NCBI RefSeq assembly: GCF_016653405.1
Contig: NZ_NHSN01000021.1
Coordinates: 1 to 64,000, forward strand
Origin: Halorhodospira halophila
Lineage (GTDB): Bacteria > Pseudomonadota > Gammaproteobacteria > Nitrococcales > Halorhodospiraceae
Length of the DNA stretch: 64,000 nucleotides
Direction: 5' to 3'
The position numbers and the translations under genes were made by a program. The notes beneath the pieces were generated by a model, which was given only the letters and a program-made list of their open reading frames with translations, had not been told where the DNA came from and made no database searches. This document shows positions 32,030 through 64,000 of the stretch, one piece after another (positions within the stretch are counted from its first letter, which is position 1; every line of letters begins with the position of its first letter).

Positions 32030-33012
32030 CAGCTGTTTCTCCAGTCGAGGACCATCTTGAGACAGTCGGGATCACCGAAGGCGATCCGGTAGGCCGATGC
32101 CGCCTCGGCGGCATCGAGGCAGTGCGTAATCAGACCGTCGAGGCTGAGCGCCCCTGACTCGATCTGCCGCGTCACGGCCTGCAGATCGTCCCGCTGCCAC
32201 TCGGCCGCCACACGCAGCCGGGCCTCACGCATGAAGGCCGACGGGAACGCGAACGACAGGCGCTCGCTGTAGAACCCGGCCAGCACCACCTCGCCTCCGT
32301 GCGCCAGCCGCCCGATCAGGGTATCGAGGAGCGCGGCGTCGCCACTGACATCGCAGATGCGCGCGTAGTCGTGGCGCTCATCGCTGTCCGGTTCCAGCAC
32401 CGTGTAGCCGTCGGCGCCGGTTCGCCGGTCCTCGTTGGTCTCCCAGACGGTCGGAGGATGGCCGAGCGACACCCCGATGCGCGCTATCAGCCGGCCCAGC
32501 ACACCGTGGCCGATCACCAGATCCGGGGGTGCCTCGGCCACCGCGTGCCACGCCGTAGCGGCCAGGGCCAACAACACGCCACGCTCGCCGAGGCCATCCG
32601 GCAGCGGGATGACCCGCTCGCCGGAGACCACCAGGCGCGAGGCGGCCCCGCCGAACAACCCGCTGACCTCCCGGTAGCAGCGGGCGCCGGGGACGAACAC
32701 GGCCTCGCCCTCCTGCCGCCCCGACTCGGCCCCGGCCGCGATGACCCGGCCCACGGACTCGTAGCCGGGAACCAGCGGGTAGGCCAGCCCCGGAAACTGG
32801 GGCATGGTGCCCTTCCAGAGCAGGCGCTCGGTGCCGGTGCTGATCCCGCTGAAGTCGATATCGACCACGACGTCCCCCGGCCCGGGGTCCGTCAAGGCCA
32901 CATCCTGAAGGGCGAGGCGCTCAGGGGCCTCGAAAAGGACCGCACGAGCCGAGTGCGGGCCGGCGGACGGCCCACCCGGATCGGCATTCGATACAGGGCT
33001 TGGGTCAGACAT
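32029..33012 (-). CDS. bchC: 3-hydroxyethyl bacteriochlorophyllide a dehydrogenase
   Basis: Oxidises the 3-hydroxyethyl group to acetyl, completing the bacteriochlorophyll a side chain. A 327-residue zinc-less medium-chain dehydrogenase: FSGISTGTERLLWKG and PLVPGYESVG are typical. GHGVLGRLIARI is the nucleotide-binding loop. The N-terminus is about 25 residues longer than in Rhodobacter BchC, and no strong ribosome site is seen, so the true start could be later. Operon crtE-crtF-bchC-bchX-bchY-bchZ. Confidence 0.94.
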   Translation of the reverse strand: MSDPSPVSNADPGGPSAGPHSARAVLFEAPERLALQDVALTDPGPGDVVVDIDFSGISTGTERLLWKGTMPQFPGLAYPLVPGYESVGRVIAAGAESGRQEGEAVFVPGARCYREVSGLFGGAASRLVVSGERVIPLPDGLGERGVLLALAATAWHAVAEAPPDLVIGHGVLGRLIARIGVSLGHPPTVWETNEDRRTGADGYTVLEPDSDERHDYARICDVSGDAALLDTLIGRLAHGGEVVLAGFYSERLSFAFPSAFMREARLRVAAEWQRDDLQAVTRQIESGALSLDGLITHCLDAAEAASAYRIAFGDPDCLKMVLDWRNS

Positions 33013-33014
33013 GG

Positions 33015-33032
33015 TGTCAGCCTAACTTGACT
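33015..33032. promoter_or_regulatory. Possible PpsR/CrtJ-type operator before bchC
   Basis: TGT-N12-ACT with inner TGTCA...TTGACT symmetry, one base off the TGT-N12-ACA palindrome bound by PpsR/CrtJ. It overlaps the suggested bchC -10 region, where a repressor would block initiation. Weak on its own. Confidence 0.35.
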
Positions 33033-33046
33033 TCCCCGTGTGTCAA
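33019..33046 (-). promoter_or_regulatory. Candidate bchC promoter with shared TTGACA element
   Basis: The minus strand has TTGACA (33041-33046) inside CCAGCTTGACACAC (33038-33051), then TAGGCT (33019-33024) 16 bases later. The same 14-mer lies in front of bchF. This -10 box is poor and very close to the annotated bchC ATG. Confidence 0.45.
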
Positions 33047-33055
33047 GCTGGTCGA

Positions 33056-34201
33056 TCACCGGGATAGGCTGCGGCTTTTAGCCGCAATTACACGGGCCTG
33101 CAGCGGATTGCAGCCTGGCAATAACCGGATCTGCTCAAACCCGGCCCCCTCGAGAAGCCCGCGGTTTTCGGCCACGGTTCGGGGCCGCCCACGCCCCATC
33201 GCGAAAAGGTAGATCCCGAAGTAGGCACCGCCCACCCGCTCGGCCCCCGGTGTCCCCGACATCGGCTCGGCCACCAGGACCGTGGTTCCGGGGCGCAGGC
33301 TGCGGTGCAGGTTCTTTAGCAGCCGGGCTGCCTCTTCATCGTCGTGATCGTGCAGGATACGCACGAGGGAGACCACATCCGCATCGGCGGGCAGAGCGTC
33401 CCGGAAGAAGTCGGCCCCCGCGGCGGTCAGGCGTTCTTCAAGGCCTGCCTCGGCGATACGGGCACGGGCGCGTTCGGCTACGGCGGGGAGATCGATCACC
33501 TGCCCATGCAGGTGGGGCCATCGACGGGCAGCGGCGATCAGGAAGGCCCCCTCGCCCCCGCCCACATCCATCAACCGCCGGTGCCGGCGCAGCGAATAGG
33601 CATCGAGCACCTCGGTGGCCACCATCGGCTGCGAGGCAGCCATCAGCCCGCTATAGCCATCCACCTCGCTGCCCGTCAGCGCGTCCGGCGACTGGTTGCC
33701 GGCATAGGCCCAATAACGCCCGAGGGCGGTCTCGCCACGCTCGCCCTGCAGCAGCTCCAGCGGATCCTGAAGATCCTCGTAAAGCAGGGCGTGGTGATCG
33801 ACCATGGCGCGGATGCCCGGCGCGGCCACCAGCACGGCCCCCAGGTCACCGAGACCGTACTGCCCGGCGCTGCGAGACTCTGCCAGGCGCAAGGCCTCGG
33901 CTGCCTCGAGCAACCGTTGCCCCGCCATCTCCGGCAGCCCGAGGCGGTTCAGCAACCGCTCCCGGGGCTGCGCCCCCTCGTTGAGCAGATCCAGCAGGCC
34001 GCTGCGCACGCTGGCCAGCACGACCTGCGAGTAGATGAACCCGGCACACAGGTCGAACAGCTCGCTGGAGCGCCGTCGGGCGATTGGCCGGGTCAACGGG
34101 AAGCGTGCCGCCAGCCGATGGAAACGGGGGCTGGCCAGCAGGCAGTCTCGCCAGTCATGCAGGCGATCCCGCCACCGGCTGTCTCGCCAGCTACGGATCA
34201 C
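33056..34201 (-). CDS. crtF: Demethylspheroidene / hydroxy-carotenoid O-methyltransferase
   Basis: Methylates the tertiary 1-hydroxyl of acyclic carotenoids, giving the methoxy groups of spirilloxanthin. The 381-residue protein has an N-terminal dimerisation domain and a C-terminal O-methyltransferase fold with LMDVGGGEGAFL (SAM site, about residue 213) and the VRILHDHDDEEAARLL segment typical of small-molecule O-methyltransferases. Its ATG overlaps the crtE stop (ATGA). The crtE-crtF pair leads into bchCXYZ. Confidence 0.93.
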   Translation of the reverse strand: MIRSWRDSRWRDRLHDWRDCLLASPRFHRLAARFPLTRPIARRRSSELFDLCAGFIYSQVVLASVRSGLLDLLNEGAQPRERLLNRLGLPEMAGQRLLEAAEALRLAESRSAGQYGLGDLGAVLVAAPGIRAMVDHHALLYEDLQDPLELLQGERGETALGRYWAYAGNQSPDALTGSEVDGYSGLMAASQPMVATEVLDAYSLRRHRRLMDVGGGEGAFLIAAARRWPHLHGQVIDLPAVAERARARIAEAGLEERLTAAGADFFRDALPADADVVSLVRILHDHDDEEAARLLKNLHRSLRPGTTVLVAEPMSGTPGAERVGGAYFGIYLFAMGRGRPRTVAENRGLLEGAGFEQIRLLPGCNPLQARVIAAKSRSLSR

Positions 34202-35073: not shown

Positions 35074-35157
35074 GTAGCCCCCTCCCGCCGGCGGCGTGTA
35101 GGCTTGCGTTCCAGGGAAGACGTGAGTCGTCGAGTACGCTAGTCAGGGACCCACCCC

Positions 35158-44924: not shown

Positions 44925-45139
44925 CGTGTCCTCCCCGCTAGAGACCTCGGCGCGCATTGGGCAACATCGTCGCGCCCCCCTTGCGCCTGGCGCGATAGTA
45001 CGACCATTCTCTAAACGCTGGCAAATGCGCCGTTACGTCGCACAGAACCGTATACTGGAAAGATCCATCACCGGCCCCCTGAGTCGGCCGGGGTGGTGCA
45101 TTGGAAGGTCACCTCGACCCTGACGTGAGAGGAGCCAGA

Positions 45140-45571
45140 ATGATGAGCAAGAAACCGTGTGACCGCTCCCGCCGCAAGTTCCTGCGCCTGGGCCTAATGA
45201 GCACGGCGGCGATCCCGGCCGCGAGCCTGTTCGGCTCCAAGGCCATGGCGGATGACAACAACAACGGCAACGACCGGACCTGGGAGATCATCAGCGAGGA
45301 TGCGCCGGAGGCCAAGGGCATCGGCTACGTGCATAATCAGGCCGACGCCGACATGGACCATCCCCGCTTCGAAAGCCACCAGTTCTGCGCCAACTGCCTG
45401 CTCTACGTCCCCCACGAGGAGGACGGAGACCACGGCTACTGCGCCGCCTTCGGCATGGACGAGAAGCGCCTGGTCAATGCCAACGGCTGGTGCTGGGCCT
45501 GGGAAGACGCCGGTGATGCCGCCGAGGTGGGTCCCCGCGACGTCCCCGCGGACCAGCTGCGGCGGGGCTGA
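45140..45571 (+). CDS. High-potential iron-sulfur protein (HiPIP), Tat-exported
   Basis: Soluble periplasmic electron carrier that can reduce PufC or the special pair. The 143-residue precursor has a twin-arginine signal (SRRKFLRLG, cleaved after AMA at about residue 37). Four cluster cysteines are seen in FCANCLLY, YCAAF and GWCWAW, the HiPIP pattern C-x2-C-x(n)-C-x(n)-C. The mature part is strongly acidic, as expected for a halophile. AGGAG precedes the ATG. TATACT at 45051 may be a -10 box. Adjacent to bchE. Confidence 0.93.
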   Translation: MMSKKPCDRSRRKFLRLGLMSTAAIPAASLFGSKAMADDNNNGNDRTWEIISEDAPEAKGIGYVHNQADADMDHPRFESHQFCANCLLYVPHEEDGDHGYCAAFGMDEKRLVNANGWCWAWEDAGDAAEVGPRDVPADQLRRG

Positions 45572-45622: not shown

Positions 45623-45813
45623 GCTGCGCCAGAGACCGCCGGGCTGCCTGATCCAGGCGCCCGGCGACGTCTTATTGGCGCGGCCGATCACGATATCGGT
45701 CAACCATCGAAGATCCAGCGTCAAGGACCCTAGACAGCAGGCGGTCTAGCCGTGCAAGTTACGCGCATAGACCGAATCACGCAGTTACCAAGGCAGTCGC
45801 GGAGGCTCGACCC

Positions 45814-61005: not shown

Positions 61006-62789
<1,784 letters not shown>

Positions 62790-62828
62790 TGCGCTGCATC
62801 CCCACTTTACGGGAGTGACTTCTCGCCG

Positions 62829-62857
62829 AATTTAAAGCGCCCCCCGGGGTGTGTCAA
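62829..62857 (-). promoter_or_regulatory. Sigma-70 promoter of the bchF superoperon
   Basis: On the minus strand TTGACA (62852-62857) and TAAATT (62829-62834) are 17 bases apart, about 40 bases before the bchF start. The -35 lies in CCAGCTTGACACAC, a 14-mer also found before bchC. Confidence 0.7.
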
Positions 62858-62887
62858 GCTGGCTGGACGCGCCTCACGATTGACACA
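62850..62887. promoter_or_regulatory. Inverted repeat in the bchF/ppsR divergent region
   Basis: TGTGTCAA (62850-62857) and TTGACACA (62880-62887) form a perfect 8-bp inverted repeat with 22 bases between. Each half looks like a -35 box facing away, so the repeat may be the centre of a divergent promoter pair and/or an operator. TGT-N12-ACG at 62852-62869 is one base off a PpsR site. Confidence 0.5.
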
Positions 62888-63089
62888 ACCTTTCAATACA
62901 GGGCCTTAGCATTCGGTCGCGCAGGACGACAGATCGTCGCATTCCCGCGTTCCGCCCTTGAACTATCCGCGCCGGATGGCGTCAATATTGAGTGCGCAAG
63001 TATTCTCGATGAAATCGGTCCGAATTCAACGCCCCGAATCCCCCGAAAAACCCGATCAAAGCCCCAGAGGACGGCCGAAGTTGAAATCG

Positions 63090-63701
63090 ATGAACGCGCC
63101 GCAACAGACGCTGGGCGATCTGCCCGCGGAGACGGTCGCCCGGCTGCTCAAGGCCGCCGCGGATATCGCCCTGATCGTGGATGCTGAAGGAACCATCCAC
63201 GACGTGGCGGTGGGCAGCGATGACCCGGGTGTCCGCGCCGCCGCTGGCTGGCGGGGCCGGCAATGGCGCGAGGTGGTCGGTGCGACGGAGCATCAGACCG
63301 TCGACCGTTTGCTCGTCGACCAGCAGAGCGCAACCCTGCAGCACATCGACGAGCGCGGAAACCCGATCCCGGTGCGCTACCGATTGATCCCGATCGGCGA
63401 CGGACGAATCGCCGCGGTGGGCCGGGACCTGCGCCCCTGCGCCGCACTGCGCCAGCAGCCGCGTGAACACAACCGCCTGCGCTCCATCGAGCAGACTACG
63501 GCCCTGGTCGGCCAGGTGCCCCTGCGCGATCTGGTCCGCGAAGCGACCGACCTGATCGAGCGCATGTGCATCGAGACGGCCTTGAACATCACCCACGACA
63601 ACCGGGCCTCGGCAGCGGAACTACTCGGACTCAGCCGCCAGAGCCTCTACTCCAAGCTGCGACGCCACGGCCTGATGACCTCCCACAACGACGCCGACTG
63701 A
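63090..63701 (+). CDS. Short PpsR/CrtJ-like photosynthesis regulator
   Basis: A 203-residue transcription factor. Residues 1-118 match the N-terminal PAS-like domain of PpsR (LGDLPAETVARLLKAAADIALIVD, ending RIAAVGRDLRPCAAL). Residues 140-195 are the Fis-type helix-turn-helix (RASAAELLGLSRQSLYSKLRR), with Cys160 in ERMCIETAL where CrtJ has its redox-active cysteine. Known PpsR is about 460 residues with two further PAS domains; both are missing here. An upstream ATG at 63009 would add 27 unmatched residues. It is divergent from bchF, its likely target. Confidence 0.85.
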   Translation: MNAPQQTLGDLPAETVARLLKAAADIALIVDAEGTIHDVAVGSDDPGVRAAAGWRGRQWREVVGATEHQTVDRLLVDQQSATLQHIDERGNPIPVRYRLIPIGDGRIAAVGRDLRPCAALRQQPREHNRLRSIEQTTALVGQVPLRDLVREATDLIERMCIETALNITHDNRASAAELLGLSRQSLYSKLRRHGLMTSHNDAD

Positions 63702-63718
63702 CCGGTGCCGCACCTCCC

Positions 63719-63747
63719 TTGACCCACCCCGCACACCCCTCTAGCTT
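63719..63747 (+). promoter_or_regulatory. Candidate promoter of the bciB-like gene
   Basis: TTGACC (63719-63724) and TAGCTT (63742-63747) are 17 bases apart, ending 39 bases before the ATG at 63787. Confidence 0.45.
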
Positions 63748-63786
63748 GAGCTCCTTGTCGTTGGGCGACTGAGCGAGGGCCCTGTC

Positions 63787-64000
63787 ATGGATCCAGCCAC
63801 TGCGCAGACCCCCCCCCTGGCCGCTGCGGCCCCGCGGGATCTCTGCACCGACTGCGGACTCTCGCGCAGCTCCGAGCCCAAGCGCTGCGGCCGAGCCTGT
63901 CAGTTCATCCGTCCGGACTACCCTGGACTGGAGCGCCGGACGCACGGCCGCAGCCGGGATCCTGAGCGCCCGGACGAGCTGCACTTCGGCCCCTTCCGGA
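63787..64000 (+). CDS. bciB: N-terminal part of BciB-like 8-vinyl reductase
   Basis: Only the first 71 codons are in the window. DLCTDCGLSRSSEPKRCGRACQFI followed by LERRTHGRSRDPERPDELHFGPF closely follows the N-terminus of the ferredoxin-dependent divinyl (proto)chlorophyllide 8-vinyl reductase BciB (cyanobacterial slr1923, F420H2-dehydrogenase beta-like family). BciB reduces the 8-vinyl group using iron-sulfur clusters and FAD. Placing it next to bchF and ppsR fits the pathway. The rest of the gene lies beyond the window. Confidence 0.8.
   Translation, partial: MDPATAQTPPLAAAAPRDLCTDCGLSRSSEPKRCGRACQFIRPDYPGLERRTHGRSRDPERPDELHFGPFR

Follow-up and report, generated by a model that had tools for sequence, protein, structure and literature searches.

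A short PpsR of Halorhodospira halophila that lacks the central PAS domains is a probable repressor of bch genes

For the PpsR of Rhodobacter, passages of PMC3949515 and PMC9144470 describe a mode of action based on oligomerisation driven by its PAS domains and on a photoreceptor that docks on the Q-linker, and the locus studied here raises the question of what such a regulator does when the middle of the protein is missing. The window, i.e. the whole stretch of 64,000 nucleotides of Halorhodospira halophila DNA that was analysed, carries a short ppsR gene at 63090..63701 on the plus strand, an open frame of 203 amino acids. A natural form that is conserved and has retained the HTH and the cysteine, together with likely binding sites, would reveal what PpsR can do without, and would allow direct thiol sensing to be told apart from sensing through partners within a single small protein. 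Our overall reading, which we consider probable, is that of a lineage-specific, internally deleted PpsR acting as a bch repressor.

The absence of the Q-linker, PAS1 and PAS2, with both ends of PpsR/CrtJ retained, is confirmed. The NCBIfam model TIGR02040 (PpsR-CrtJ) matches the gene at its ends only, with one piece at 63144-63458 (model positions 1-113, 7.3e-18) and another at 63465-63674 (model positions 372-442, 7.3e-30), and no match to model positions 114-371, which cover PAS1 and PAS2, was found in ppsR or elsewhere on its contig. The whole protein scores 170.5 bits, below the curated cut-off of 275.4, because its middle is missing. In place of the Q-linker, PAS1 and PAS2 there is a linker of 14 residues (residues 117-130; 63438..63479, plus strand), of the same length and ungapped in all seven short forms, compared with a median of 271 residues at this position in 81 full-length PpsR proteins, which amounts to a net shortening by about 257 residues relative to that median.

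The N-terminal PAS-type domain (residues 8-116; 63111..63437, plus strand) was recognised by phmmer, by AlphaFold2 and by Foldseek. In the phmmer sequence search residues 8-125 match R. sphaeroides PpsR 4hh2 (E 4.6e-12), and 4hh3 is matched as well. The AlphaFold2 monomer model (mean pLDDT 83, pTM 0.56) consists of a PAS fold, most of which has a pLDDT of about 90, and then a helical C-terminal domain, residues 126-140 forming a low-confidence coil (pLDDT under 50), and the top seven Foldseek matches to the predicted fold are all PpsR chains, the best being 4l9g, 4hh3 and 4hh2. With Pfam, HTH_8 is found at residues 156-192 and PAS_4 at residues 22-110 below threshold. The C-terminal Fis-type HTH (residues 131-196; 63480..63677, plus strand; PF02954, 2.8e-10) is 76-80% identical to its ten nearest counterparts among the 81 full-length proteins. 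Fis and the NtrC-type HTH_8 belong to the same sequence family as this domain; the short PpsR differs from them in having no ATPase or response-regulator domain and in a sequence that is PpsR-specific. The codon of Cys160, the equivalent of Cys420 in CrtJ and Cys424 in PpsR, lies at 63567..63569 (plus strand). Its alignment column holds a cysteine in 87 of 88 PpsR proteins, including all seven short forms, and it is the sole cysteine common to these seven, the protein of one of them (G003) having no other.

A sequence-only reading of this DNA had held that the N-terminal domain, the DNA-binding helix and the redox-cysteine position of PpsR are kept, and all of this is borne out by the two TIGR02040 pieces, the structural matches and the cysteine column. 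The alignment with full PpsR and the search of relatives that it proposed yielded the architecture given above and the short orthologues described below. Its description of the protein as PAS-depleted is right for the lost PAS1, PAS2 and Q-linker and goes too far for the remainder, since the retained N-terminal domain is itself a PAS domain, so that one of three is left. The frame of ppsR stays open further upstream of 63090, and the position aligned to its start in G003 is not ATG. A search for RNA families in 62700-64000 found none.

The short form is present in seven of the nine genomes of the genus, i.e. the source genome and six of the eight others. None of the nine yielded a full-length PpsR; several of them, other than the source genome, are 77-94% complete, such that a second ppsR copy could escape detection there. 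In the source genome a second, full-length PpsR, which would have made the present copy a remnant, was likewise not found, and the search gave generic PAS or HTH similarity only. That an assembly or sequencing error hides the PAS domains, another possibility raised at the outset, has a negligible probability, as the architecture recurs in six further genomes and thus in seven assemblies, one of which (G006) is a single contig, and as the PAS1/PAS2 piece of TIGR02040 is absent from the contig of ppsR.

The two remaining genomes of the genus, G002 (99% complete) and G008 (a single contig), gave no match to ppsR. They are probably sisters, and their lack of the gene likely reflects one evolutionary loss. 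In passages of Imhoff et al. 2022 (PMC8877833) ppsR is placed beside bchFNBHLM in Halorhodospira, as here, and is stated to be absent from halochloris and abdelmalekii; the same passages make no mention of missing PpsR domains or of operators. Given this loss and a fast-evolving N-terminal domain, one may ask whether the short gene is a decaying remnant that is heading for loss as in these two congeners. We regard this as very unlikely, as the frames are open in all seven short-form genomes, the linker is fixed at 14 residues, the palindromes described below are conserved and the HTH is under strong constraint. By the Nei-Gojobori method dN/dS of the HTH is 0.010-0.251 (21 pairs), and that of the N-terminal domain 0.224-0.567 in the 15 pairs without G003 and 0.636-1.137 in the six pairs involving G003, i.e. 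the N-terminal domain evolves much faster than the HTH.

In a tree of 87 proteins, computed with no outgroup and with G003 left out for its gaps, six short forms make up one clade (support 100/100), whose neighbours in a shared fork are full-length PpsR proteins from the same order (91/85). This sequence evidence is consistent with an origin of the short form by one deletion in a PpsR ancestor. Among the best 80 of at least 577 confirmed relatives, one frame is short (L051), 78 measure 468-585 amino acids, and L117, with 339 amino acids, ends at a contig edge; L115 appeared short in its tblastn row and was rejected, its frame being 496 amino acids. The sample of 369 genomes of the class gave five matches at E 1e-20 or better, namely the source genome and four full-length proteins that pass the TIGR02040 cut-off. 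Within these samples, only members of the genus Halorhodospira carry the short form. Judged by titles and abstract openings, the open-licence literature yielded no report of a natural short PpsR; the PpsR truncations in the consulted part of PMC3949515 are engineered, and an excerpt of PMC10468136 contains the phrase 'without PAS domains'.

If the protein is functional, sites for it would be expected at bch promoters. The gene bchF (62277..62789, minus strand; TIGR02020, 2e-57) is divergent from ppsR and a candidate target. The alignment of the intergenic region between them contains a conserved block, which reads CGTCYAGSYAGCTTGACA toward bchF, and within the region lies a candidate PpsR operator at 62852..62869, CGT-N12-ACA on the minus strand. 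Read by eye, the conserved core promoter of bchF, TTGACA-17-TAAATT, occupies 62829..62857 (minus strand), and its -35 box TTGACA contains the GACA half of the candidate operator. The 18-bp element occurs with at most one mismatch in all seven short-ppsR genomes, whereas in the two ppsR-less genomes no site within 150 bp comes closer than three mismatches; there the TTGACA and the -10 box persist, as judged by eye, and the CGTC half is gone. On the side of ppsR, a TTGACA at 62880..62885 (plus strand) might tentatively be its -35 box; it is kept in five of the seven genomes and altered in the alignment in G004 and G003, and a clear -10 box was not seen. Another operator candidate, the long inverted repeat TTGTGTCAA..TTGACACAA, was rejected because it had no matches as written and because its right half is variable.

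A similar picture is obtained at bchC, where the -10 box lies inside the candidate operator (33015..33032; minus-strand reading AGT-N12-ACA), which is identical in all seven short-ppsR genomes. The longest string common to the seven 300-bp upstream regions, AGTCAAGTTAGGCTGACAC (19 nt), spans the -10 box TAGGCT and shrinks to GTTAGGCT once the two ppsR-less genomes are added. In these two the best site within 150 bp again has three mismatches, and by eye TTGACA and a -10 box persist with both operator halves gone. When each 150-bp region is compared with 500 sequences from a first-order Markov model, an equally good site arises in 1.8-5.2% of sequences for bchF and 1.8-3.4% for bchC in the seven short-ppsR genomes, compared with 96-98% for the best bchF and bchC sites of the two ppsR-less genomes. 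A possible second, weaker bchC operator at 33041..33058 has two mismatches and is found in only four of the seven genomes; lying 8 bp from the first, it recalls the 8-bp/9-bp tandem spacing of PpsR promoters mentioned in a passage of PMC4452267.

Upstream of bchE a candidate operator at 45719..45736 (CGT-N12-ACA), CGTCAAGRACCCTRGACA, has one mismatch and is present in five of the seven short-ppsR genomes, the region being cut by a contig end in G004 and the site being absent in G003. Neither ppsR-less genome has it, the best alternatives having two mismatches in G002, elsewhere in the region, and three in G008. The candidate operator of bchG (20250..20267, TGT-N12-ACG) has one mismatch in four and two mismatches in two of the six short-ppsR genomes in which the start of the gene is present; a site with one mismatch is also present in ppsR-less G002, so that bchG offers no contrast. 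This bchG palindrome of G002 (L173, G002:C57:8665-8682) could be a relic or the site of another factor, and in G008 the operator halves at bchG stand, by eye, one base further apart. The operator contrast between genomes with and without ppsR may represent a single evolutionary event.

With at most one mismatch allowed, the simple palindrome TGTC-N10-GACA occurs 16 times in the whole window, where 21 are expected, and thus shows no excess. A degenerate pattern, which was built from the candidate sites themselves, gives a weak excess there, with 9 found against 5.2 expected and 8 of 100 shuffles reaching as many. In the source genome (G000, 2.86 Mb) the same pattern has four exact matches, compared with one for the reversed-pattern control, and three of the four lie upstream of bchF, bchE and bchG. 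These three genes are also among the seven exact matches in G006 (reversed control three), while the ppsR-less genomes hold one each, that of G002 in the bchG promoter (controls two in G002 and four in G008). Six of these 13 exact matches fall outside photosynthesis promoters (one in G000, four in G006 and one in G008), and for the four of them whose neighbouring frames were listed no photosynthesis genes were seen by eye beside the match. At bchF, bchC and bchE one half-site is CGT or AGT, a departure from the strict TGT-N12-ACA which has a precedent in the cGT-N12-ACA of Rubrivivax crtI in the consulted part of PMC4452267.

The candidate targets bchF, bchC and bchE are shared with CrtJ of R. 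capsulatus, for which passages of PMC5362033 give ChIP peaks at these genes and also at crtED, crtAI and puc; bchG is not among the peaks found in those passages, and sites at the crtED, crtAI and puc promoters were not established in the present analysis. PpsR/CrtJ of Rhodobacter, Rubrivivax and Bradyrhizobium also have the same N-terminal domain, the same Fis-type HTH with its redox cysteine and the palindrome type of the candidate operators. Palindromes that lie over -35 and -10 boxes point to repression, and the sequence data suggest that the short PpsR is very probably a functional repressor of bch genes. The sequence-only reading had offered a 'simple dimeric repressor'; the repressor part of this proposal gains support from the position of the palindromes over core promoters and from their absence at bchF, bchC and bchE where ppsR is missing, and the dimer is probable. 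Such a dimer would form through the N-terminal PAS domain together with the Fis-like helices, and would bind single operators and block RNA polymerase.

Which signal, if any, reaches this repressor is less certain. In Rhodobacter, according to passages of PMC3949515 and PMC9144470, the Q-linker carries AppA (crystal structure) and AerR (model), PAS2 supports the tetramer and the second redox cysteine, Cys251, sits in PAS1. The view from which the work started, that AppA is bound by the central PAS domains, therefore has to be corrected, as AppA docks on the Q-linker instead. In the short PpsR the docking of AppA or AerR would have been lost with the Q-linker, and the second redox cysteine (Cys249/251) was lost with PAS1. 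Neither AerR/PpaA (query from G027) nor BLUF proteins were found in any of the nine genomes of the genus, and an excerpt of PMC8877833 gives ppaA as absent from Halorhodospiraceae and Chromatiaceae. Among five genomes that have full-length PpsR and served as controls, four, including G027 from which the query was taken, gave strong AerR/PpaA matches, and the fifth, G038, gave only a weak and distant AerR-like match (E 2.4e-4). AerR loss is therefore not by itself tied to the short PpsR, because G038 combines full-length PpsR with this weak match. In G043 and G027 (L024 and L025), a single AerR/PpaA-type protein was observed on either side of full-length ppsR.

With these inputs gone, the protein could be a constitutive repressor without sensor input, in which case bch expression would depend on how much of it is present, through autoregulation at the operator that bchF and ppsR share, and on other regulators. 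The candidate operator in the shared divergent intergenic region fits this possibility, as do the lost domains and the partners that were not found. The anaerobic setting assumed in the sequence-only reading also agrees with PMC3746430, a passage of which describes H. halophila as obligately anaerobic, and in such an organism oxygen as an input may matter little. On the other hand Cys160 is kept in all seven short forms though other cysteines vary, which argues against purely level-controlled repression unless the residue is structural, and we consider this explanation possible but clearly the weaker one.

A sensor role for the remaining N-terminal PAS domain, with a ligand, haem or flavin and with Cys160 as a structural residue only, is improbable. 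The PAS fold of the model and some constraint (dN/dS 0.22-0.57 in the 15 pairs without G003) would allow it, but this domain evolves faster than the HTH, with values of 0.64-1.14 in the six pairs with G003, and in passages of PMC3949515 the N-terminal domain of PpsR serves oligomerisation and no ligand role for it is seen.

We put the chance that the Cys160 thiol is the main input at about even. For the corresponding cysteine of CrtJ, passages of PMC9144470 and PMC5362033 describe that a sulfenic acid can arise there and that DNA affinity changes. Redox sensing through Cys160 alone, as the sequence-only reading had suggested, is compatible with Cys160 being the sole cysteine common to the short forms and has a precedent in Bradyrhizobium PpsR1, for which redox sensing with one cysteine is reported in a passage of PMC4452267; one HTH cysteine can thus suffice there, and the short PpsR differs in that the middle of the protein is absent. 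In the same source the C436A variant of Rubrivivax PpsR retains repression. In the mechanism that we propose for the short PpsR, oxidised Cys160 would lead to tighter binding and switch the bch genes off, and reduction would lead to release. It is tempting to go further and suppose that in this anaerobe, which oxidises sulfide, the lone thiol reads a sulfur or redox signal, for instance a persulfide, and not oxygen, that the N-terminal PAS domain and the HTH suffice to control the bch regulon through single operators, and that pigment synthesis follows sulfide supply without a photoreceptor, but this is a speculation to which we give little credence.

Some further features of the window concern the same genes. 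Inspection by eye places the -10 boxes of bchC (TAGGCT, 33010-33024) and bchG (TACTGT and variants, 20286-20300) 6-8 nt before an ATG, a distance kept in eight of nine bchC upstream regions, that of G008 differing, and in all eight of bchG; from this sequence pattern, the bchC and bchG mRNAs may be leaderless. A possible one-mismatch site at 35129-35145 lies upstream of a carotenoid-type gene, named by eye. Directly downstream of the short ppsR is a gene for an FrhB/FdhB-type protein of 420 amino acids (63787-64000 and L163:788-2050, plus strand; PF04422, PF04432), which by eye adjoins ppsR in G006 too and whose product we take to resemble the 8-vinyl reductase BciB. Upstream of bchE, at 45101-45571, there is a small secreted-protein-like gene, the product of which presumably resembles a high-potential iron-sulfur protein.
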